Below are positions 6,590-17,762 of a DNA stretch of 32,111 bases, in pieces. A model generated the notes under the pieces. The model was not told where the DNA came from. It saw only the letters and a program-made list of their open reading frames with translations, and made no database searches. The stretch is from Actinomycetota bacterium (GTDB taxonomy: Bacteria > Actinomycetota > Acidimicrobiia > Acidimicrobiales > Ilumatobacteraceae). The position numbers and the translations under genes were made by a program. The stretch is taken from NCBI GenBank assembly GCA_009920715.1, contig RFZO01000005.1, positions 1 to 32,111 on the forward strand, read 5' to 3'. Positions within the stretch are counted from its first letter, which is position 1. Each line of letters begins with the position of its first letter.

Positions 6590-7801
6590 ATGCCGTTGGA
6601 ACTTGATTTCGGACCCGCCGCCGAGGCCTTCCGCACCGAGGTGCGCGCCTGGCTGGAGGCGAACAAGCCCGCCGAGCTCGTCGGTGTGAATGCCGACGAG
6701 GCACAGCGCGGCCAGCACCCCGCACTCAGCGCGTGGGCGAAGAAGCTGACCGAAGCCGGCTACATGTGCGTCGGATGGCCGAAGGAGTACGGCGGCCGCG
6801 GTCTCACCGGCGTGGAGGTGGCGGTGCTGAACGAGGAGTTCGCCCGCGCGAATGTCCCGCGCATCACGCGGGGCATGGGGGAGTGGCTCGTGGGCCCGTC
6901 CATCATCGTGTGGGGCACCGAGGAACAGAAGCGTCGCTTCCTGCCGCGCATCGTCGACGGCACCGACCGGTACTGCCAGGGCTTCTCGGAACCCGACGCG
7001 GGATCCGACCTCGCGTCGCTGAAGACGCGCGGCGTCATCGACGGTGACGAGGTGGTCATCACCGGCCAGAAGGTGTGGACCTCTGGTGCCACGGAGGCGA
7101 ACATGATGTTCTGCCTGTGCCGCACTGACCAGGACGCCCCGAAGCACGCCGGCATCTCCTACGTGCTGCTCCCGATGTTCAAGGAGGACAAGTCGACGAA
7201 CGGCATCGAGCTGCGCCCGATCCGTCAGCCGCACGGGGCGTCGCACTTCACCGAGACATTCCTCACCGAGTCGCGGGCACCCGTCGACAACATCATCGGC
7301 GGCATGAACAACGGCTGGCGCGTCACCATGACCACCCTCGGCAACGAGCGCGGCGGGAACGCCACCACCCAGCACGTCGAGTTCACCAAGCAGTTCTGGG
7401 CCGCCGTGAAGATGCTGCAGGCCTCCGGCAAGGCGAAGGACCCGTTGATCCGCCAAGAGCTGGCCTGGGCCTACAGCCACGTGGAGATCATGCGGTTCAA
7501 CGGCCTGAAGGTGCTGTCCGAGGTGATCGCACGCAAGGAGCCGGGTCCCGGCGCGTCGGTGAACAAGATGTTCTGGTCGGAGTACGCCCAGAAGTTCTCG
7601 GAGCGCATGATGAACGCCCGCGGCGCCGACGCGATGCTGGCGGCCAACGAGCCCGGCCAGCCCTTCGCGGTGGACCGCTGGACGTCGATGTTCTTCCAGC
7701 ACCGTTCCTCCACGATCTGGGGCGGCACCGCGCAGGTGCAGCGCAACATCGTGGGCGAGAGGGTGCTGGGGCTCCCGAAGGAGCCGGGCCAGAAAGGCTG
7801 A
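6590..7801 (+). CDS. Acyl-CoA dehydrogenase
   Basis: A 403-residue FAD-dependent acyl-CoA dehydrogenase. The FAD/substrate segment YCQGFSEPDAGSDLASLKTR is followed by GDEVVITGQKVWTSGA (about residues 125-170), and the C-terminal adenine-binding segment is TIWGGTAQVQRNIVGERVLG. In medium-chain enzymes the catalytic Glu lies in the equivalent of YEGTAQ; here that position is G in IWGGTAQ, as in many actinobacterial FadE proteins, so the base must come from elsewhere, for example helix G. ATG 6590 is chosen because GGGGGA lies five bases before it; an in-frame GTG at 6569 lacks such a site. It ends 19 bases from the convergent vWA gene. Confidence 0.9.
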   Translation: MPLELDFGPAAEAFRTEVRAWLEANKPAELVGVNADEAQRGQHPALSAWAKKLTEAGYMCVGWPKEYGGRGLTGVEVAVLNEEFARANVPRITRGMGEWLVGPSIIVWGTEEQKRRFLPRIVDGTDRYCQGFSEPDAGSDLASLKTRGVIDGDEVVITGQKVWTSGATEANMMFCLCRTDQDAPKHAGISYVLLPMFKEDKSTNGIELRPIRQPHGASHFTETFLTESRAPVDNIIGGMNNGWRVTMTTLGNERGGNATTQHVEFTKQFWAAVKMLQASGKAKDPLIRQELAWAYSHVEIMRFNGLKVLSEVIARKEPGPGASVNKMFWSEYAQKFSERMMNARGADAMLAANEPGQPFAVDRWTSMFFQHRSSTIWGGTAQVQRNIVGERVLGLPKEPGQKG

Positions 7802-7823
7802 CCCGGCCCCTCCGCGGGGGTCA
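7799..7823. terminator. Possible bidirectional hairpin between convergent genes
   Basis: TGACCC (7799-7804) and GGGTCA (7818-7823) are inverted repeats whose ends are the stop codons of the acyl-CoA dehydrogenase (+) and the vWA gene (-). The 13-base loop is itself GC-rich. There is no T-run, so intrinsic termination is uncertain. Confidence 0.3.
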
Positions 7824-8507
7824 CATCTCCTCTTCGGCGTCCTTGCCGGTCTCGAAGAAGTCCTTCGCGTCGGTCTGCATGCCCATGCGCTTCTTGTCAC
7901 GGAAGTTCATGGTGGCGCGTGACATCGACCGCATCGCCGCGCGTGAGTTCATGGCGTCGGCCTTCCACGCAGACGTGGCGCCCTGGTCGTAGCCGAAGCG
8001 GGCGGCGTCGGCGTACGCATCCAGTCCGGCAGAGAGGAACACGAACTGCCATCCGTCGGCCGTGCGCTCCGCGATCAGGTTGCGCACCTGCTCGAGGTTG
8101 TATTCGTGGGACTGGTTCTCCTCACCGTCGGTGATGGTGACGAAGATGATGTCGTCCTTCGGCCGGCCGGTGGCCACGCGCGCCTGCTGGTCGACCATGA
8201 CCCGCCCGATCGCGAGTCCGGTGGCGTCCAGCAGGGGAGTGCCGCCCCGCGGAACGTACGAGTGGCGGTCGAGAGAGACCGCCTCCGAGATGGGTGCCCC
8301 CCAGACGACCACCTCCTGGGGATCCTGCGAGTCGAACAGGATGATCGAGATGCGGGCGTCAGAGCCGTTCTGCTGCTGCTCGGTGAGGAAGGTGTTGAAC
8401 CCGCCGATCACGTCGTTGACGATTGACGACATCGACCCCGACCGGTCCAGGAGGACCGCGATGTGGGTGCCGTTCGCTGCGGGCTGGTGGTTGGTGTTCT
8501 GTGTCAT
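7821..8507 (-). CDS. Single-domain von Willebrand factor A (vWA) protein
   Basis: A 228-residue cytoplasmic vWA protein. The metal-ion-dependent adhesion site is complete: DRSGS at residues 21-25, the threonine in PRGGTPLLDA and the aspartate in TITDGEEN. Such domains bind a partner through a divalent metal; no second domain, signal peptide or membrane helix is seen. The C-terminus is basic and then acidic (FRDKKRMGMQTD to DAEEEM). ATG 8507 is fixed by AGGAGA (8513-8518) five bases upstream. The gene follows nrtR on the same strand but has its own promoter, overlapped by a palindrome shared with the divergent ADP-ribosylglycohydrolase promoter, so NrtR control is likely (inference). A partnership with the CbbX-like AAA+ ATPase at 10987 would parallel known AAA/vWA pairs but is not shown. 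Confidence 0.85.
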   Translation of the reverse strand: MTQNTNHQPAANGTHIAVLLDRSGSMSSIVNDVIGGFNTFLTEQQQNGSDARISIILFDSQDPQEVVVWGAPISEAVSLDRHSYVPRGGTPLLDATGLAIGRVMVDQQARVATGRPKDDIIFVTITDGEENQSHEYNLEQVRNLIAERTADGWQFVFLSAGLDAYADAARFGYDQGATSAWKADAMNSRAAMRSMSRATMNFRDKKRMGMQTDAKDFFETGKDAEEEM

Positions 8508-8526: not shown

Positions 8527-8545
8527 AACCCCGACCGTCGGGGTT
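8527..8545 (-). repeat. Stem-loop in the leader of the vWA gene
   Basis: AACCCCGA and TCGGGGTT form a perfect 8-bp stem with a 3-base loop. If transcription starts just after the TATAGT box (8558-8563), this hairpin lies in the mRNA leader nine bases before the ribosome-binding site. It also overlaps the edge of the putative NrtR operator. It could affect translation or be a second operator half-site. No T-run follows, so a terminator for nrtR is less likely. Confidence 0.45.
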
Positions 8546-8565
8546 TGAGTAAAGGACACTATAAC
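8543..8565 (-). promoter_or_regulatory. Putative NrtR operator 1 over the vWA promoter
   Basis: On the minus strand this 23-bp site reads GTTATAGTG, five bases, TACTCAAAC: an imperfect palindrome of the form GTT-N3-GT-N7-AC-N3-AAC. It contains the -10-like TATAGT (8558-8563). The same arrangement, with an identical GTTATAGTG half and an upstream TTsACACAC six bases away (8572-8580), occurs at 9419-9456 before the divergent gene. The GT-N7-AC core matches what I recall for NrtR operators. Binding to the Nudix regulator encoded next door is inference. Confidence 0.6.
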
Positions 8566-8576
8566 CAGAACGTGTG

Positions 8577-9317
8577 TCAATCCTTCCGGGGTGACGACCG
8601 GAACCGGATGGGGGGTGTGATCTCCTTGGCTCTGCCCGCCCGGTACAGCATGGGGGGCCGGCCGGGTGTGGGCTGGTCGGAGGACATCACCCCGAGGGGC
8701 TGGACGAAGTTCTTGGTGAGCTCGACCTTGCGCCGGAAGTTGGCCGCGTCGACCTCGTCCTGGAGGAAGGCCTCATAGACCATCCTCAGGTCCGACATGG
8801 TGAACTTGGGCTGGCAGAAGCTGACGGCAATGGGGGTGTCCTCCAGCATGGAGAATGCCCGTGCCCTGGCATCAGCGATGATGCGGTGGTGGTCGAACTC
8901 CAGCACCCTTGAGGCCTGAAGCTGCCGGTAGGGCATGAACCGGGCCTCGACGGAGTGCTTGATGGGTGCGATCTCGCCGGGGTGGGGCAGCAGGGCCAGA
9001 TAGGCGATGGAGAAGGCCCTCCAGCGACTGTCCCGCCCGGGGTCGCCGTAGGCACCCACCTGGTGGAGGTCCTTGTGACGCAGGCTTATGCCAGTCTCCT
9101 CGTGCACTTTCCGCAGGGCGGTGTCCTCCAGGGGTTCCCCCTCCTTGACGGCGCCGCCGGGGAGCGCCCACCTGTTGGAGGAGGCATCAGGTCGGCGCAT
9201 CACCAGCACCTCGAGGCGGTCCTTCGGGGCGATCTCGCGGTCCGGGTTCACGGTCAGCACGACCGTGTCGACATAGACGTAGAAGTCCATCTGGATTTTT
9301 CTCTCGTGCTTCGGCAT
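8577..9317 (-). CDS. nrtR: NrtR-type Nudix transcriptional regulator
   Basis: A 246-residue protein with an N-terminal Nudix domain and a C-terminal winged helix, the architecture of NrtR. The Nudix box is at 55-77 (G55-x5-E61-x7-R69, then KVHEETGI); the glutamate normally after the arginine is K70, so hydrolysis may be weak or absent. The C-terminal domain shows FTMSDLRMVYEAFL and NFRRKVELTKNFVQPLG followed by GRPPMLYR, characteristic of the NrtR DNA-binding part. NrtR proteins are repressors of NAD metabolism released by ADP-ribose. Here the neighbours are instead an ADP-ribosylglycohydrolase fusion (divergent) and a vWA gene (downstream), both with the same palindrome in the promoter. ATG 9317 is chosen; a GTG at 9323 and an ATG at 9290 are alternatives. 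Confidence 0.82.
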   Translation of the reverse strand: MPKHERKIQMDFYVYVDTVVLTVNPDREIAPKDRLEVLVMRRPDASSNRWALPGGAVKEGEPLEDTALRKVHEETGISLRHKDLHQVGAYGDPGRDSRWRAFSIAYLALLPHPGEIAPIKHSVEARFMPYRQLQASRVLEFDHHRIIADARARAFSMLEDTPIAVSFCQPKFTMSDLRMVYEAFLQDEVDAANFRRKVELTKNFVQPLGVMSSDQPTPGRPPMLYRAGRAKEITPPIRFRSSPRKD

Positions 9318-9433
9318 GCCCACAGTGTGCCACCCCCGGGTGTCATGTTTGGGTCAAAGGCTCCCTTTTCGACGTTCGGGTGGCCGGAGACGCGGGAATA
9401 ACACGGATACGGGCCTTGTTCACACACCCCTCC

Positions 9434-9456
9434 GTTATAGTGCGGAGTACCTAAAC
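9434..9456 (+). promoter_or_regulatory. Putative NrtR operator 2 over the ARH-phosphatase promoter
   Basis: GTTATAGTG, five bases, TACCTAAAC: the same GTT-N3-GT-N7-AC-N3-AAC palindrome as at 8543-8565, again containing TATAGT (9436-9441) and again preceded six bases upstream by TTCACACAC (9419-9427). The identity continues on the other side as AAACCCC. It lies 38 bases before ATG 9495. A repressor bound here would cover the -10 box and could also act on the divergent nrtR. Confidence 0.6.
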
Positions 9457-9494
9457 CCCCGGCCCCGGCCGGACCGATTGCCCACAGGAGCCCA

Positions 9495-10982
9495 ATGACC
9501 ACTGATTCCACCCGTTCCCCCCTCAGCCCGCACCGCGCCTCGTACACCCAGCAATTCCGGGCGGTCGGAGCACTCCTCGGGGCCGCAATCGGCGACGCCC
9601 TCGGTGCCCCCTTCGAGTTCAAGGCGGGAGGACTGTTCAGCGCCAGGTTCCCCGAACCCGTCATCGGCGGTGTGGGCGAGATGATCGGCGGTGGCGGATT
9701 CGGATGGGCCCCCGGTGAGTTCACCGACGACACCCAGATGGCCATGGCACTCGCGGAATCACTCATCAGGAACGACGGGCTGGACCTTGACGACTTGTGG
9801 GAGCGTTTCCGTGCGTGGGCCCAGTCGGCCAAGGACGTGGGCATCGTCACCAGCATCGTGTTGTCCCGCGATTCCCGCCACGGCGCGGCCGAGCACGGGC
9901 ACGAGGCCACCAACGGTCGCAGCGCCAGCAACGGGTGCGTGATGCGCGTGGCGCCCGTCGGCATCATCGGGGCGCGCCTGGGCTCGGACAGCACAATTGC
10001 GCTGGCTGCCGAACAGGCCCGCCTGACCCACTTCGACCCCGCCGCCGCCGTCGGGGCTGCGCTCGTGGCCGAGCTGATCCGGCACATCATCGTCACCGGC
10101 GAGTTCCGGGGGGTCGCCGAGGCCGTTCTCGACAGGTTCGCCGCGGAGGGTCATTTCGACGCTGCCGTCGTGGACGGGTACAGACCATTCGTGGCCGGGT
10201 CGTTCGACCCGCTCGCGCCGGGACTGCCCGGCAACGGTTCCGTGTGGACCACGGTCGGCCAGGCGCTGTGGGCCGTGCGCACCACGTCCACGTTCGAGCA
10301 GGCGATGCGCACCGTGATCGATCTTGGCGGCGACACTGACACGGTTGCAGCTGTCACCGGCAGCATCGCGGGCGCTCTCCACGGCGTGCAGCGCATTCCC
10401 GTGCGCTGGACCACCTACGTGCACGGGTATCTCCGCATGCCCGACGGCAGCCAGAAGGAGTACCGCATGCAGGACCTGATCGACGTCGCACGGATGCTCG
10501 TCGGCAAGGAGACATCGCGCATGTCGTACGTGGAGCCGCCCGTCGGGCCCCTGAAGGTGCACCCTGACGGCGTCCACGCGGCGAACCTCGACGGTGCGGC
10601 TCGCGCACCGCGCGACCACGCGGTGGTCACGCTGTGCATGCCCGAGGACAGGTTCCTCCAGCACGTCAACCGGCGCCAGATCTTCATCCGTGACAAGGAG
10701 AACCCCGCCAACGAGGACCTCCTGTTCGTCGTCCGCGACGCGGTGGAGGCGATCGATGCGTTCCTCGCCGAGGGCCGCGAGGTCGTCGTGCACTGCCACG
10801 GCGGCCGCAGCCGCACCGGGCTGGTGCTGAAGGCCTGGTACATGTCGCGTCACGGTGCGAGCCACGACGAGGCGCACGCATGGCTGCGCGGCAGGTGGGA
10901 GCACTACGAGACGTGGACCCAGTCCTTCTGGGATTTCCTGGAGGACGAGTGGACCGCGCACGTTGCGGGGAAGAGGGCCTGA
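9495..10982 (+). CDS. ADP-ribosylglycohydrolase fused to a Cys-phosphatase domain
   Basis: A 495-residue two-domain protein. Residues about 18-325 form a DraG/ARH-type ADP-ribosylglycohydrolase: LGAAIGDALGAPFEF, the metal-binding EFTDDTQMAMAL and DLGGDTDTVAAVTG are all present, so the di-metal site looks intact. Such enzymes remove ADP-ribose from proteins or small molecules. Residues about 365-490 form a dual-specificity/tyrosine phosphatase-like domain with the CX5R loop HCHGGRSRTG (C434, R440) and a possible general-acid Asp in FIRDKENPAN. The fused enzyme might act on phosphorylated and ADP-ribosylated substrates or on an ADP-ribose phosphate (inference). AGGAG five bases upstream supports ATG 9495. 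It starts an operon with the AAA+ gene four bases downstream and is likely under NrtR. Confidence 0.88.
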   Translation: MTTDSTRSPLSPHRASYTQQFRAVGALLGAAIGDALGAPFEFKAGGLFSARFPEPVIGGVGEMIGGGGFGWAPGEFTDDTQMAMALAESLIRNDGLDLDDLWERFRAWAQSAKDVGIVTSIVLSRDSRHGAAEHGHEATNGRSASNGCVMRVAPVGIIGARLGSDSTIALAAEQARLTHFDPAAAVGAALVAELIRHIIVTGEFRGVAEAVLDRFAAEGHFDAAVVDGYRPFVAGSFDPLAPGLPGNGSVWTTVGQALWAVRTTSTFEQAMRTVIDLGGDTDTVAAVTGSIAGALHGVQRIPVRWTTYVHGYLRMPDGSQKEYRMQDLIDVARMLVGKETSRMSYVEPPVGPLKVHPDGVHAANLDGAARAPRDHAVVTLCMPEDRFLQHVNRRQIFIRDKENPANEDLLFVVRDAVEAIDAFLAEGREVVVHCHGGRSRTGLVLKAWYMSRHGASHDEAHAWLRGRWEHYETWTQSFWDFLEDEWTAHVAGKRA

Positions 10983-10986
10983 CACC

Positions 10987-12420
10987 GTGATCGACATCAT
11001 GGAGGCCGAGGAGGCGGTGCTGTCCTACCTCGACAAGATCGCCTGCATCGACACCGACATCGACGAGTTCGGCGAGGAGTCCGAGCCGTCCTTCCCGTTG
11101 CGCTTCATCACGCACGAGAACGCAGTCACCTGCACGGCCACTCTCTACACGCGCTTCAACGGTGCGGTGGTGCTGCGGATCGATGCCGACGTGGCGGAGA
11201 CCGACGACAGCGCGTCGATCCGCCAGTGGGCCCTCGACGCTCCCGGTCAGTTGCCCTACGTGCAGATCCGCTACGAGCGCGATTCCGGGGCGGGCAGGGC
11301 CAGGCTCACGGCGACCCACTCACTGTCCGTCGACCATCTCTCGCGGTTCGTGCTGGAGCAGGTGGTGTCCTCGTTCGACTTCATCGTGCCCCAGTGGGTC
11401 ACGAAGGCCGGGCAGGTGGAGGCAGTGGCGGAGATGAACGCCCAGCGCCAGCGCCAGCGCATCGAGGACGCCGCCCGGGCCGGCGCGGAGGAGGACCACA
11501 GCGACGACTCCGAGGACCCGTTCGGCCTCGACGAGGACGCACCCACCACCGCGACAACCGTGCACGAGGCGAAGGGAATCGACGCTGTCCTGTCCGAACT
11601 GGCGGCGCTCATCGGTCTCGAACCCGTGAAGAGGCTGGTGCGCGATCTCGCCCACGTGCAGCAGGTCGCCTCCCTGCGCGAGCGGGCCGGGCTGAGGCCG
11701 TTGCGTCCGTCGCCGCACCTGGTGTTCACGGGCAACCCCGGCACGGGGAAGACCACCGTGGCGCGTCTCATCGGGCGTCTCTACAAGGAGATGGGACTTC
11801 TCCGCCGGGGGCACGTGGTGGAGACCGGCCGGCAGGGATTGATCGGCGGCTACGTGGGGCAGACGGCCATCAAGACCGCCGAGGTGCTGAAGTCGGCGGA
11901 GGGCGGTGTGCTGTTCATCGACGAGGCGTACTCCCTCGCGGTCGGACACCATCTCGACTACGGCAAGGAGGCCATCGAGACGATCCTCGCCCACATGGAG
12001 AACCACCGCGGCGAGATCGCGGTGGTGGTGGCGGGATACCCGGACAAGATGAAGGACTTCCTCGCCATGAACCCGGGCCTCGCCAGCCGCTTCGACCACA
12101 CGCTCCAGTTTCCCGACTTCTCGAACGAGGAGCTCGTGGAGGTGTTCGAGCTGTTCGCGTCCGCGCACGATTACGTCGTCACCCCCGCCGCCCGACAGCA
12201 CCTCGCCGCACTCGTGCGCAGGTGGCCCCGGTCGGCCACGTTCGCGAACGCACGCGAGGTGCGCAAGCTCTTCAACGACGTGGTGATGCTGCACTCGGCT
12301 GCAGTGGTGGAGGGCGGCATGAGCCTCGGCACGGGGCTCGTCGAGATTCATCCCTGTCACTTCCCCGAGGAGAACGGGTTGGTGGGGGCGGGTTCGTCCC
12401 GCCGTTTCGGCTACGTCTGA
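10987..12420 (+). CDS. CbbX/SpoVK-like AAA+ ATPase with YbjN-like N-terminus
   Basis: A 477-residue protein. Residues 1-145 resemble the YbjN/type III chaperone-like fold (PLRFITHENAVTCTATLYTRF, then VVLRIDADV). An acidic, low-complexity linker follows at about 160-190. The AAA+ module of the CbbX/CfxQ type starts near 195: Walker A GNPGTGKT at 249-256, the pore-region segment GLIGGYVGQTAIKT, Walker B GVLFIDEA at 307-314, and the sensor region PGLASRFDHTLQF with the Arg finger. Such ATPases remodel protein complexes; YbjN-like domains may select the partner. GTG 10987 follows the previous stop by four bases; ATG 10999 is an alternative. Co-transcription with the ADP-ribosylglycohydrolase fusion is likely. 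Its client is unknown. Confidence 0.85.
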   Translation: MIDIMEAEEAVLSYLDKIACIDTDIDEFGEESEPSFPLRFITHENAVTCTATLYTRFNGAVVLRIDADVAETDDSASIRQWALDAPGQLPYVQIRYERDSGAGRARLTATHSLSVDHLSRFVLEQVVSSFDFIVPQWVTKAGQVEAVAEMNAQRQRQRIEDAARAGAEEDHSDDSEDPFGLDEDAPTTATTVHEAKGIDAVLSELAALIGLEPVKRLVRDLAHVQQVASLRERAGLRPLRPSPHLVFTGNPGTGKTTVARLIGRLYKEMGLLRRGHVVETGRQGLIGGYVGQTAIKTAEVLKSAEGGVLFIDEAYSLAVGHHLDYGKEAIETILAHMENHRGEIAVVVAGYPDKMKDFLAMNPGLASRFDHTLQFPDFSNEELVEVFELFASAHDYVVTPAARQHLAALVRRWPRSATFANAREVRKLFNDVVMLHSAAVVEGGMSLGTGLVEIHPCHFPEENGLVGAGSSRRFGYV

Positions 12421-12491: not shown

Positions 12492-14249
12492 GTGCGAACC
12501 GGTGCGATCAGGCGGCTTGACGAACGTCTGCATCCCCGCGGGGATGCTGTCGCCGGCACCGCATCAGGAGCACTACAGCGAAGAGTTGTCCTCGCGGCGG
12601 CCGCCGTGGCCGGGTTGGTGTCCCTCATGGTGGCACTGCGTCAGCACGGACCCACGGTGCACCCTGACGAGTGGGGTTTCCTGCTGAACGGTCGGGTGAT
12701 CATGGGGCATTCCGAGGCCCAGATCCCCACCGGCAGCTTCTACCCGGCCGGGTTCGGCTTGGTCACGGGTCCGCTCGCCGAGATCACCGGCTCGCTGGCC
12801 GGCGCCTACAGGGGGACACTGATCGTGAACTTCCTGCTGTGCGTGCTGGTGGGGGTGACCGCTCACCGTGTGGCGCGCCGGGTGTTCGGGGCGGGGGAGA
12901 CCACGGCCACGGTTGCAGGGGCACTCGCGTTCGTCGTGCCCGGCACCATCGTGACGAGCCTGTTCGCATGGCCCGAGACGGCCGCCCGTCTCGCGTTCCT
13001 GCTGTTCGTGCTCGGCTTCCATTCAGTCGCGCGCGACAGGCGGCCCGCCAGGATGATCGTCCTCGGTTTCGCGGTGGGGCTCATGCCGGCACTGCACGGC
13101 AGGTTCACGCTGGTGCTGCCGGTTGTCTGCCTGGTGTTTTTGGCGTGGGGGCTGAGACGGGATGTGTCCCGCGTCGCGGCGGTCACCGCGTGCGCGGCGA
13201 CAACCGCGGGATACGTGCTCAGTTACCTGCTGAACAGGTTCGTGAAAGGGGCGCTGTACGGGGCCTCCTACGACCAGGAGAACAGGTTGCTGCGCAGGCT
13301 GGTCGACCCGTCGCTGTGGCCCGCCCTCCTGCGCACGATGACCGGCCAGAGCTGGTACCTGGTGGCAACCTCGGGCGGTCTCGTGGCCGTGTCCGCGGCG
13401 TGGATGGTGTCGCGGGTGCGCGCCGAAGGCGGCCTGCGCACGGTCCGCACCGATGCGGCACGGTTGACGTGCCTCGTGGTGGTGGCGAACACGCTGCTCC
13501 TCGTGTTCACCGGCGGACTGCAGCTGCTCTTCGGCAACCGCGGTGACCACCTCATCTACGGGCGGTACGTGGAGATACTCGTGCCCGTGCTCATCGTCGC
13601 CGGGTGCGCGGCTCTCGAGCATTCGAGGCTGCTCTCGTTGAGGGCGTGGCTGGCGGGCTCAGTTGCCATCGTGGGTGTGGCCCTTCTGTACGTGCTCATC
13701 GACATGGGTGACGGTGTGAAAGGGGGATGGTCCCGCAACGACATCGTCTTCCCGAACATCGTCGGCACCGACGCGATGCGCTACCTCGTCACCCCCGGGC
13801 TGGTCACCTTCGGCATCGCGTTCGCGCTCGCGGGCGCGGTGCTGTGGTGGGTGTTCCGGAGGGGCGGCATGTGGGCACCCGTGCTGATGGTCGTGCTCCT
13901 CGCCGCGGGGTCGTCGTGGTCCGCGCAGCGCAGCATCTTCAGCCGAACCGACGACCTGCGCGCGACCAAGGCCACGGTGGAGTTTGTGCGGCAGTCAGGA
14001 GGCACGCTGATCGGGTTCGACGAGGGGGTCCGTAACGACCGCTCGTACTACTACCTGCGCTACAAACTGCACCCGGTGGCCCTCGTCAGGTTCGACATCT
14101 CGGGACCCGACGCCGTCATCCCGGCTGAGTACTCGTGCGTGTACGGCTTCCCGAACAAGCCCCCGTCGGACGGGGAGTGGCGCATCGTCGCCGATGAGAT
14201 ACCCCTCAAACGGGTACTGTGGCAACGGACCGGCACCGACCGTTGTTGA
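12492..14249 (+). CDS. Polytopic GT-C-like glycosyltransferase
   Basis: A 585-residue integral membrane protein with about ten to twelve predicted helices (first at about residues 32-49). The loop after helix 1 carries HPDEWGFLLNGR (57-68), matching the Asp-Glu motif found in the first periplasmic loop of GT-C glycosyltransferases such as ArnT/PMT types, which use lipid-linked sugars outside the membrane. A soluble C-terminal tail of about 100 residues (from ATKATVEFVRQSGG) ends the protein. It heads a run of glycan genes and is followed 19 bases later by a GT2 enzyme that could make the lipid-linked donor. The GTG start is preferred because a -10 box sits six bases upstream. The acceptor is unknown. 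Confidence 0.7.
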   Translation: MRTGAIRRLDERLHPRGDAVAGTASGALQRRVVLAAAAVAGLVSLMVALRQHGPTVHPDEWGFLLNGRVIMGHSEAQIPTGSFYPAGFGLVTGPLAEITGSLAGAYRGTLIVNFLLCVLVGVTAHRVARRVFGAGETTATVAGALAFVVPGTIVTSLFAWPETAARLAFLLFVLGFHSVARDRRPARMIVLGFAVGLMPALHGRFTLVLPVVCLVFLAWGLRRDVSRVAAVTACAATTAGYVLSYLLNRFVKGALYGASYDQENRLLRRLVDPSLWPALLRTMTGQSWYLVATSGGLVAVSAAWMVSRVRAEGGLRTVRTDAARLTCLVVVANTLLLVFTGGLQLLFGNRGDHLIYGRYVEILVPVLIVAGCAALEHSRLLSLRAWLAGSVAIVGVALLYVLIDMGDGVKGGWSRNDIVFPNIVGTDAMRYLVTPGLVTFGIAFALAGAVLWWVFRRGGMWAPVLMVVLLAAGSSWSAQRSIFSRTDDLRATKATVEFVRQSGGTLIGFDEGVRNDRSYYYLRYKLHPVALVRFDISGPDAVIPAEYSCVYGFPNKPPSDGEWRIVADEIPLKRVLWQRTGTDRC

Positions 14250-14268
14250 CGAAGAAGGCGAACGAGCA

Positions 14269-15174
14269 ATGACCACCTACGCCCCCGACGAATGCGACGT
14301 CAGCGTCGTGCTGCCCATCTACAACGAGAAGGGTCACCTGCGCGCAGAGATCGACCGCATCAGGGCGGCGCTCGAGAAGTCCAGGTATTCGTTCGAGTTG
14401 ATCGTGGTGGACGACGGCTCGAACGACGGCTCGGAGGCCGAGCTCTCCCGCATCGAGGGCATCACGCTCATCACCCACCGCCGCAACCAGGGCTCGGGTG
14501 CGGCACGCCGCACGGGCACCACCGCGGCGCGCGGCCGCGTGGTCGTGTGGACCGACGTCGACATGACCTACCCGAACGACCTCATCCCCGAACTGGTCGA
14601 CTCCATGGAGGGCCTCGACCACGTGGTCGGGTGGCGCCAGACGGAGGAGGGCACGCACAAGCTGCTCCGCACGCCCGCCAAGTGGGTCATCCGGAAGCTC
14701 GCCAGCTTCCTGTCCGAGACCGACATCAAGGACCTCAACTCCGGCCTGCGGGCGTTCCGCCGCGACGTGGCCATGCAGTACGTGCACGAACTCCCGAAGG
14801 GCTTCTCGTGCGTGACCACGCTGACAATGTCCTTCCTGGGCAACGGGTACAGCATCGGCTTCTTCCCGATCGAGTACTTCCCCCGCGCCGGCCGCAGCAA
14901 GTTCCACTGGCTTCGCGACACCCGCCGCTACATCCTGCAGGTCATACGGATGACCCTCTCGTACAACCCGCTGAAGGTGTTCCTGCCCGTGGGCCTGGTG
15001 CTGCTCGCCATCGGTTTCGTGAAGCTCGGTTTCGACTGGGCCGAGCGGGACTTCAGGCTGGCGGCCAACACGCTGCTCATCTTCTTTGCCGCGCTCCAGG
15101 TCATCACCGTGGGGTTGCTCGCCGACCTCGTCGTGCGGGCGACGAAGTCCCCGAACTCTGTCCCGCCGGCCTGA
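14269..15174 (+). CDS. GT2-family glycosyltransferase (DPM1/GtrB-like)
   Basis: A 301-residue membrane-anchored family 2 glycosyltransferase. The nucleotide-binding segment is VSVVLPIYNEKGHL (11-24) and FELIVVDDGSNDGS (42-55); the DXD motif is D96-V97-D98 in WTDVDMTYP. Two C-terminal helices follow (about 242-260 and 275-295), as in dolichyl/polyprenyl-phosphate sugar synthases of the GtrB type, which load a sugar onto a lipid carrier at the inner membrane face. AAGAAGG lies about eight bases before ATG 14269. It probably supplies a lipid-linked sugar to the GT-C-like protein encoded just upstream (inference from family pairing). The next gene starts three bases after its stop. Confidence 0.85.
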   Translation: MTTYAPDECDVSVVLPIYNEKGHLRAEIDRIRAALEKSRYSFELIVVDDGSNDGSEAELSRIEGITLITHRRNQGSGAARRTGTTAARGRVVVWTDVDMTYPNDLIPELVDSMEGLDHVVGWRQTEEGTHKLLRTPAKWVIRKLASFLSETDIKDLNSGLRAFRRDVAMQYVHELPKGFSCVTTLTMSFLGNGYSIGFFPIEYFPRAGRSKFHWLRDTRRYILQVIRMTLSYNPLKVFLPVGLVLLAIGFVKLGFDWAERDFRLAANTLLIFFAALQVITVGLLADLVVRATKSPNSVPPA

Positions 15175-15177
15175 TCC

Positions 15178-16410
15178 ATGCGCATCGCGATCGTCGGCGC
15201 CGCGCTGTCGGCGAACAAGGGTGCCGCGGCGATGCTCGAGTCGGTGATGGCGCGCCAGCCCGACGTGTCCGGGCCGTGCACGTTCGACATTCTCACCACG
15301 TACCCCGGCGCCGACGCGCCGCTGGTTCCGGCAGGTGCACACGCCCGCATCGTGGGGCTTCAGCCCCTTCGGCTGGCGCTGGTGGAGATCCCCGTGGCGT
15401 TGCTCGCCCGGCTCGCGCGGCTGCTCCGCCTGCCGCTCGGGTGGGTGCGTACCCGGGCGTGCCGGGCAATCCTCGATGCGGACGTGGTCGTCGACGTCGC
15501 GGGCATCAGCTTCGCCGACGGGCGCGGCATCCCCATCACCGTCTACAACGCGCTGATGACGGGACTGCCCTTGCTGCTCGGGACACCCACGGTGAAGGCG
15601 GCGCAGGCTCTCGGTCCCTTCGCGAACCCCGTGAACAGGGTGCTCGCGCGACTGGTGCTGCCCCGGCTCGCCGCGGTCTGTGCGCGCGGTGCCCGCACCA
15701 GGGAGCATCTCGATTCTCTCGGCCTCCGCAACGTCACGGACGTGGCGGACCTTGCGTTCTCGCTGGACGAGGCCGCGGCCCTGCCCCCGGAAGCCTCGGC
15801 CGGGGTTGCGGGGGCAGTCGCGGGCACCGGCGGCCAGTACGTCGTGGTGATGCCGAGTTCGGTGGTGAGGAAGCTGTTCGAGGCCACGGGCGGCGACTAT
15901 GTCGGGGCCGTCGTGGATGTCGTCCGCGGAATCAGGGAACGCACGGGCCTCGCCGTCGTGATCGCGCCCCACAGCTACCGCGACGGCCAACCGGAGGGAC
16001 GCATGAACGACGGCCCGGTGTGCAGGGAGGTCGCCGGGCGTCTCTCCGGTGACGCCGGCACCGCGGGCATCGACATGGCCCTCACGGCGGGTGAGCTGCG
16101 CAGGCTGGTCTCCGGATCGCGCGTGCTCGTGACCAGCCGTTTCCACGCGATGATCTCGGGTCTGGCCACGTGCACACCGACCGTCGTGGTGGGGTGGAGC
16201 CACAAGTACCGCGAGGTGCTCGACGATTTCGGCCTCGCCGACATGGGAATGGATTCCTCGGCCCTCTCGGACCCCGCGAAAGTGGTGGATGCGGTGGTCG
16301 ACTGCGCCGGTCGTCGCGACGCGATCTCCGCGCGGATCGCGGCCGGCCTGCCCGCCGTGAGGGAGAAGTCGCTGCGGAACTTCGACGTCATCGCGGGGGC
16401 AGTCAGGTGA
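15178..16410 (+). CDS. Polysaccharide pyruvyl transferase family protein
   Basis: A 410-residue protein of the polysaccharide pyruvyl transferase (CsaB/WcaK) family. Its GT-B-like fold is suggested by the N-terminal strand MRIAIVGAALSANKGAAAM, the central VVVMPSSVVRK and the C-terminal signature VTSRFHAMISGLATCTPTVVVGWSHKY, which closely matches the family. These enzymes transfer pyruvate from phosphoenolpyruvate onto sugars of exopolysaccharide or cell-wall polymers, giving them negative charge. The gene starts three bases after the GT2 stop and overlaps the next gene by four (GTGA), so the three are almost certainly one operon. Confidence 0.85.
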   Translation: MRIAIVGAALSANKGAAAMLESVMARQPDVSGPCTFDILTTYPGADAPLVPAGAHARIVGLQPLRLALVEIPVALLARLARLLRLPLGWVRTRACRAILDADVVVDVAGISFADGRGIPITVYNALMTGLPLLLGTPTVKAAQALGPFANPVNRVLARLVLPRLAAVCARGARTREHLDSLGLRNVTDVADLAFSLDEAAALPPEASAGVAGAVAGTGGQYVVVMPSSVVRKLFEATGGDYVGAVVDVVRGIRERTGLAVVIAPHSYRDGQPEGRMNDGPVCREVAGRLSGDAGTAGIDMALTAGELRRLVSGSRVLVTSRFHAMISGLATCTPTVVVGWSHKYREVLDDFGLADMGMDSSALSDPAKVVDAVVDCAGRRDAISARIAAGLPAVREKSLRNFDVIAGAVR

Positions 16411-17762
16411 ACGTGACCGCGGACCTCAGCGGGGTGATCTCGTCCGGCATGTGCATCGGGTGCGGCGCGTGCGAGATGGCCGACGGGTCGGTGAAGGTGC
16501 AGTTGAACCCGCGCAGCCTCATCTACGAACCGTCGTCGGCGGGCGGGGCGGCGGCCGCGGCGGTCTGTCCCGCGGTGTCCGTGGACTACCGCGGGCTCCA
16601 GGAGTACCTCTTCCCCGGTGCCGAGGCCGGTCCCTACGGTGTGGTGCGTTCGGTGCACCTGGCCCAGAGCACCGACACGGAACGCAACGTGAAGGCGAGC
16701 TCGGGTGGGCTCATCAAGGAGATTCTCCGGTCGCTGCTCTCCTCGGGGGACATTGACGGTGTGATTGCACTTGACCACGTCGACGGAATCGAGTTCGCGG
16801 CGCGTCTGGTGACCGACCCTGACGACGTCGACAACCTGCCCGGCAGCATCTACCACAACCTCTTGCAGACACCCGCCCTGAAGTTGCTGAGGGACACGCC
16901 GGGGAGGCTGGCTGTCGTGGCCATCCCGTGCCAGCTGGAGGGCCTGTACTCGTGGGTCCGCGCCAACGCACCCGAACTGCGGGAAAAGATCGTGATGACC
17001 ATCGGGCTGCTGTGCGGGTGGCAGTACTCGCACCACAGCATCAACGCGATGGGTGAGTACCTCGGGTACGACCCCGCCGACATCGCCGACATCTCGTACC
17101 GCGGCGGCGGGCCGGTGGGCAAGCTCACCGTGCGCACCCGCGACGGGTCGGAGTACTCCGCCAGCAGACGGGTCGACTTCGGGTACCAGGTGGCGTTCGA
17201 CCGGCATTTCAACACCACCAGGTGCCACGTGTGCGTGAACCACGGCAACTTCCTCGCCGACCTGGTCGTGGGGGACGCGTGGCTTCCCAGCACCGTGTTC
17301 ACGAAGACGGGCATCAGCCTGGTGGTGTGCCGCACGCCGTTCTCCGAGTCCGTTCTCTCGCGTCTGGTGTCATCGGGTGCGTGCATCGCGACTCGTGTGA
17401 CCGACGAGGAGATCCGCGAGTCGCAGACCGACCGGGTGGTGTTCGGCGAGTTCGCGTACGCCTATGCCGAGCACCTGCGCCGTCTCGGGGGCCACGTGCC
17501 CGAGCTGCGCGGCCCGAACGAGGGCCACGGCACGCCGAAGCCGCGCCGTCAGGTCGCAAAGTTCCACCGCGAGCTCGTGCGCAAGCAGGCCCTCATGGCC
17601 GCCAGGCGTTACCGCTACATGAAACTACGCAAGGCCACGCTCGAGCTGCGCGGCTACGTGATGCGGTACGTGCGCTGGTTCCTGGTGCGCATCCTGCGGG
17701 TCAAGAGCCTCAGCGGTCGCCGCAGGGAGATCCCCCGCGAGCAGCTGTCCGGGTTCCGCTGA
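16407..17762 (+). CDS. FrhB-like F420 hydrogenase/dehydrogenase beta subunit protein
   Basis: A 451-residue protein of the coenzyme F420 hydrogenase/dehydrogenase beta-subunit family. The N-terminus has an iron-sulfur motif C16-x2-C19-x2-C22 (CIGCGAC) with a C54-P55 partner, and the C-terminal domain shows the family's TTRCHVCVNHGNFLADLVVGDAW segment. The domain binds FAD, F420 and Fe-S clusters in known relatives. Standalone members are often found beside polysaccharide pyruvyl transferases in exopolysaccharide clusters, where their redox role is unclear. The start GTG 16407 overlaps the previous stop. The last 60 residues are strongly basic (RYRYMKLRKATLELRG and onward), suggesting membrane or polymer association. 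Confidence 0.82.
   Translation: MNVTADLSGVISSGMCIGCGACEMADGSVKVQLNPRSLIYEPSSAGGAAAAAVCPAVSVDYRGLQEYLFPGAEAGPYGVVRSVHLAQSTDTERNVKASSGGLIKEILRSLLSSGDIDGVIALDHVDGIEFAARLVTDPDDVDNLPGSIYHNLLQTPALKLLRDTPGRLAVVAIPCQLEGLYSWVRANAPELREKIVMTIGLLCGWQYSHHSINAMGEYLGYDPADIADISYRGGGPVGKLTVRTRDGSEYSASRRVDFGYQVAFDRHFNTTRCHVCVNHGNFLADLVVGDAWLPSTVFTKTGISLVVCRTPFSESVLSRLVSSGACIATRVTDEEIRESQTDRVVFGEFAYAYAEHLRRLGGHVPELRGPNEGHGTPKPRRQVAKFHRELVRKQALMAARRYRYMKLRKATLELRGYVMRYVRWFLVRILRVKSLSGRRREIPREQLSGFR

Follow-up and report, generated by a model that had tools for sequence, protein, structure and literature searches.

An ADP-ribosylglycohydrolase–phosphatase fusion in a predicted ARG-centric gene cluster of a freshwater actinobacterium

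A freshwater actinobacterium encodes an ADP-ribosylglycohydrolase (ARG) and a dual-specificity-type phosphatase (DSP) in one polypeptide, which raises the question of what such a chain might act upon and in which cellular system it would work. The gene lies in the window analysed here, a whole stretch of DNA of 32 111 nucleotides. Fusions of this kind have been known since 2022 from section 3.8 of a study that predicted a widespread ARG-centric bacterial system computationally (PMC9503650; Viruses 2022, 14:1977). As described there, the system comprises an ARG, a fused or adjacent domain of the rhodanese-phosphatase (R-P) superfamily, a Nudix or WYL regulator and vWA/TY-type chaperones, with HD, nuclease and helicase genes and the hallmark ARPP as accessory components, and it was proposed to undo ADP-ribosylation imposed by phage enzymes. 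Our preferred reading, to which we give a probability of roughly 0.6, is that the fusion serves as the eraser in an inducible cluster for ADP-ribose reversal, of this predicted kind.

The fusion protein and its active sites

The gene and its features are as follows, with coordinates in the window.

9495..10982, + strand: ARG-DSP fusion gene, 495 aa (ORF and translation, Pfam, AlphaFold2 pLDDT 94.6 and pTM 0.94)
9567..10403, + strand: ADP-ribosylglycohydrolase domain, residues 25-303 (PF03747, ADP_ribosyl_GH, 8.8e-64; Foldseek)
9723..9734, + strand: TDDT metal-ligand motif, residues 77-80, invariant in 51 sequences
10326..10343, + strand: GGDTDT metal-ligand motif, residues 278-283; D280, D282 and T283 invariant; aligns with GGDADT of DraG
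10662..10901, + strand: dual-specificity-type phosphatase domain, residues 390-469 by Pfam (PF00782, DSPc, 2.1e-10; PF22785, Tc-R-P, 3e-8)
10791..10817, + strand: phosphatase loop HCHGGRSRT with C434 and R440, residues 433-441; H433, C434, S439, R440 and T441 invariant

The ORF opens with ATG at 9495 and closes with TGA at 10980-10982, the exact bounds at which the first-pass annotation had placed an ADP-ribosylglycohydrolase fused to a dual-specificity-type phosphatase. The Pfam search that it proposed as a check returned ADP_ribosyl_GH and DSPc, both above the curated cut-offs. The fusion is real and is no assembly error, because it recurs in 80 other loci. In Foldseek searches the ARG domain matched 2cwc best, followed by DraG (2woe, 2woc and 3g9d) and the Tri1 immunity protein (6dre), with TM scores by target length of 0.67-0.82, and ARH3 was also among the matches; the phosphatase domain matched dual-specificity phosphatase structures in the Foldseek viral library. 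The fusion shares its fold and catalytic residues with DraG and Tri1, but these have no fused phosphatase and are paired with a dedicated transferase, and in NCBIfam the fusion stays far below either equivalog cut-off, with 128.8 of 337 bits for DraG and 127.4 of 490 for Tri1.

That both active sites are intact had been read from the DDT/GGDTDT ligands and the HCHGGRSRTG loop, and the residue numbering given for C434 and R440 was correct. Conservation across 51 homologues of 42-55 % identity and a confident structure model both support this reading. In the glycohydrolase domain E41, T77, D78, D79, T80, T178-H179, D280, D282 and T283 were invariant, and D114 of the two-metal site was conserved in at least 90 % of homologues, so that the fusion carries the two-metal residue set of the ADP-ribosylglycohydrolase superfamily. 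Aligned with DraG, E41 pairs with the Glu of the V-E-F motif and D114 with Asp97, the latter assignment resting on the D97N entry 2woe, which shows N there in the only column that differs from 2woc. The phosphatase domain has the HCX5R(S/T) loop that defines the DSP/PTP superfamily, and D400, which is invariant along with the five loop residues listed above, is a candidate for the upstream general acid. AlphaFold2 folded both domains in the model, and neither appeared to lack a formed active site, the outcome that had been named as grounds for abandoning the proposal.

It could be argued that two unrelated activities were fused for co-expression only and serve separate targets, as DSP-type phosphatases are often separate genes adjoining the ARG (PMC9503650, section 3.8), an arrangement also suggested by the ORF at 7601-8251 of a congener's locus, L121. 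We regard this as very unlikely, given that the fusion has been kept over about 42-56 % identity with both sites invariant and that the pTM of 0.94 argues for a fixed domain arrangement in the predicted structure.

The gene cluster, its regulator and a shared promoter-proximal element

The first-pass annotation considered neither the surrounding genes nor the 2022 precedent. The fusion is flanked by the following features.

7821..8507, - strand: vWA-domain protein with the MIDAS motif DRSGSM (PF00092, 0.0014, under the Pfam cut-off)
8540..8580, - strand: 41-bp element upstream of the vWA gene, core at 8541-8563, 27/41 identity to the ARG-DSP element
8577..9323, - strand: NrtR-like regulator, Nudix plus winged helix (PF00293, 4.2e-16; PF21906, NrtR_WHD, 8.3e-13)
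9421..9461, + strand: 41-bp element upstream of ARG-DSP, core TATAGTGN5TACYYAAACCC at 9436-9458
10987..12420, + strand: TY-chaperone::AAA+ ATPase gene (AAA, 2.8e-13; AAA_lid_6; Walker motifs; N-terminal domain from a structure model)

Judged by its gene content, the locus belongs to the predicted ARG-centric system, whose core components the window holds. Among the window genes scanned, no ADP-ribosyltransferase or sirtuin gene was coupled to the ARG; an R-P superfamily phosphatase is fused to it (DSPc and Tc-R-P); the divergent neighbour is a Nudix-HTH regulator; and peptide-binding chaperones (the vWA, SseB and TY-Chap types in the published set) are represented by the vWA protein, with its weak score and intact DRSGSM, and by a TY-type fold. 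The ARPP and nuclease modules were found in relatives, where PF20208 confirmed ARPP at two loci (L060 and L067) and HD_4 and NERD/UvrD neighbours occurred near the fusions. The window differs from the published system in that its TY-chaperone is fused to an AAA+ domain, a type of ATPase absent from the main text of PMC9503650, and in the shared promoter-proximal element found at this locus.

The AAA+ gene begins with GTG 4 bp past the ARG-DSP stop codon (an alternative ATG lies at 10999), and its Walker A (GNPGTGKTT) and Walker B (VLFIDEA) motifs are conserved. Its N-terminal 165 residues had no Pfam match; the AlphaFold2 model of this domain (pLDDT 91) has a fold matching YbjN, AmyR and type III secretion chaperones such as SycH, with a probability of 1.00 yet E-values of 1e-3 at best. 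The regulator gene is also divergent from the fusion in L002-L007 and in the congener locus L102, and vWA orthologues of 60-63 % identity occupy the same position in L002 and L005-L007. L102, enlarged as L121, has the same order of regulator, fusion and AAA+ genes as the window. Within 1.5 kb of the fusion, the 81 loci had an NrtR-like regulator in 26 cases, ARPP in 12, an HD phosphatase in 8, AAA+ in 6 and vWA in 5; none of the tested partners was close by in 52/81, partly because some loci are short.

Several further observations were made around these genes. The vWA gene of the congener (G361; L121, about 7090-7400, + strand) is interrupted by in-frame stop codons and seems to have lost an internal segment. 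The adjoining ORF at 7601-8251 (+ strand) stands alone, had no Pfam match and has, by eye, a C-X5-R loop (CWMGVNRGPS); the DNA upstream of it resembles the ARG promoter element, again by eye. Relatives of the TY-chaperone::AAA+ protein occur in L084 and L086, from two genomes (G487 and G392) that have no strong fusion match. Downstream in the window, 12492-17762 holds a glycosyltransferase-type run with a weak PMT_2 match, a family 2 glycosyltransferase, a polysaccharide pyruvyl transferase and an FrhB/FdhB-like gene.

The similarity between the 41-bp elements upstream of the fusion and of the vWA gene, the latter overlapping the regulator gene at its upstream end by reaching the final codon, was equalled in only 1/1000 Markov resamples; three comparison lengths were tried, so this significance is suggestive only, and the 23-bp comparison alone was not significant (186/1000). 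The core occurred at only these two sites in the 2.48 Mb assembly with up to 3 mismatches; since it was written from its own two sites, this uniqueness is informative and the match is not independent. With six bases in the spacer the pattern matched only unrelated sites at 3 mismatches, and this form was rejected, five being the correct spacing. Comparable pairs were found in L005 (5/1000) and L006 (0/1000), the pair in L002 was not significant (78/1000), and the ARG promoters of relatives aligned poorly in a multiple alignment. The simplest reading of the sequences is that the shared element is a putative common operator/promoter for the NrtR-like repressor. A palindrome, AACCCCGACCGTCGGGGTT, also lies at 8528-8547, between the vWA start and the vWA promoter element.

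The regulator shares the Nudix and NrtR_WHD winged-helix domains with NrtR, but it scored 67.4 bits against the 400-bit cut-off of the NCBIfam NrtR equivalog, which makes it 'NrtR-like' only. Unlike NrtR, it adjoins an ADP-ribose eraser, and its Nudix box reads RK instead of the catalytic RE, as do those of seven close relatives. The more distant regulators of L015, L017, L019, L020 and L029 keep RE. The change from RE to RK therefore favours an ADP-ribose sensor, rather than a hydrolase, in the clade of the window regulator, and a divide between sensors and enzymes inside one Nudix regulator family is possible. The first-pass annotation had suggested that one domain of the fusion might itself act as a sensor, a suggestion we do not favour because neither active site has lost its residues and the neighbouring regulator is the more likely sensor.

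Distribution of the fusion

Among the 80 other loci, which were fetched by similarity, 78 encode the fusion as a single ORF; the exceptions are an in-frame stop (L010) and a gene cut by a contig end (L069). Hosts include Acidimicrobiia, Geodermatophilaceae and Kineococcus, among others, and some matching records (L031, L032 and L039) are, by label only, proteobacterial or planctomycete bins. In evenly drawn samples, near-full-length matches, defined as reaching residue 446 or beyond and counted by reading the tables, occurred in 9/297 genomes of the phylum and 17/296 of the class. Two of three congeners have the fusion and the third, at 93 % completeness, does not. The distribution is thus patchy.

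A phage origin of the fusion was considered and rejected, as no phage record in INPHARED carries glycohydrolase and phosphatase together. None of the 28 matches in that set covers 80 % of the query, and those listed end by residue 324; ARGs of Streptomyces and Erwinia phages are ~30 % identical to the ARG domain and, unlike the fusion, have no phosphatase domain. PADLOC had no model for the ARG-DSP fusion, and no biochemical test of an ARG-phosphatase fusion was found in the literature searched.

Substrate, role and significance

Two complete active sites in one chain had led to the suggestion that the protein acts on ADP-ribose 1''-phosphate or on phospho-ADP-ribosylated targets. The known route to ADP-ribose 1''-phosphate starts with KptA/Tpt1 (PF01885). 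KptA was not found in 17 genomes, namely the organism's own (89.7 % complete) and 16 others, ten with an ARG gene, and the first suggestion is weakened for this reason, another source of the compound being conceivable. Phospho-ADP-ribosylated targets are a possible substrate.

It is rather unlikely that the fusion instead salvages soluble ADP-ribose derivatives (O-acetyl-ADP-ribose and ADP-ribose phosphates) in NAD turnover, with the NrtR-like protein as a metabolic sensor. NrtR regulators govern NAD metabolism genes in other bacteria (refs 163-164 of PMC9503650), and the title of the top ARG structural match, 2cwc, names no macromolecular partner. Against this, the window genes scanned included none recognizable as acting in NAD biosynthesis or salvage, the 17 genomes yielded no KptA, the distribution is unlike that of a core pathway, and the AAA+ and chaperone partners suggest protein targets.

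Another alternative is a housekeeping switch of reversible ADP-ribosylation, as in DraG/DraT, in which an endogenous target would be modified by a transferase encoded elsewhere in the same genome. Among the closest solved relatives are indeed DraG and Tri1, an ADP-ribosylarginine hydrolase. The genome-wide enzyme searches covered DarT and KptA, and other transferases were judged from the scanned window genes; there was no match for DarT in the organism's own genome, no transferase was recognized among those window genes, and no recurrent transferase partner was noticed among the scanned neighbour families of relatives, which together make such a switch improbable. DarT was also rejected as a partner of the fusion, as only one of the 17 genomes (G016) has it. 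The lack of a DarT match in the genome and of a recognized transferase among the scanned window genes is as the published ARG-centric template expects.

For the eraser of a predicted ARG-centric cluster, we infer the following course of events. The DraG-like two-metal glycohydrolase would detach ADP-ribose from the macromolecules that carry it, most likely where it is arginine-linked on proteins, and the fused cysteine phosphatase would take a phosphate either off the same target or off a breakdown product, namely ribose-5-phosphate or AMP. The NrtR-like repressor may keep both the fusion/AAA+ operon and the vWA gene silent via the shared promoter element and let go of it on binding ADP-ribose, while the TY-chaperone::AAA+ and vWA proteins would bind and remodel modified proteins. 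A more specific version, in which the TY-chaperone::AAA+ protein presents ADP-ribosylated, possibly misfolded proteins, the fusion strips ADP-ribose and phosphate from one target and the ADP-ribose-gated repressor acts through one operator, is a tentative proposal that we consider doubtful.

In summary, our study adds to the published description the shared element, the Glu-to-Lys change in the Nudix box of the window clade and the chaperone-AAA+ fusion, the last of which is absent from the main text of PMC9503650. The ARG-centric system has so far been predicted only. The window locus is a compact version of it, and its layout, in which a single fused enzyme is accompanied by a coupled chaperone-ATPase, a repressor of the sensor type and a candidate operator, is unusually clear, so that both the chemistry of the enzyme and the regulation can be tested directly. 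With a conserved, well-formed fusion, the locus lends itself well to such tests, and if the prediction is true the system would defend bacteria by repairing a protein modification imposed by phages rather than by killing the cell.
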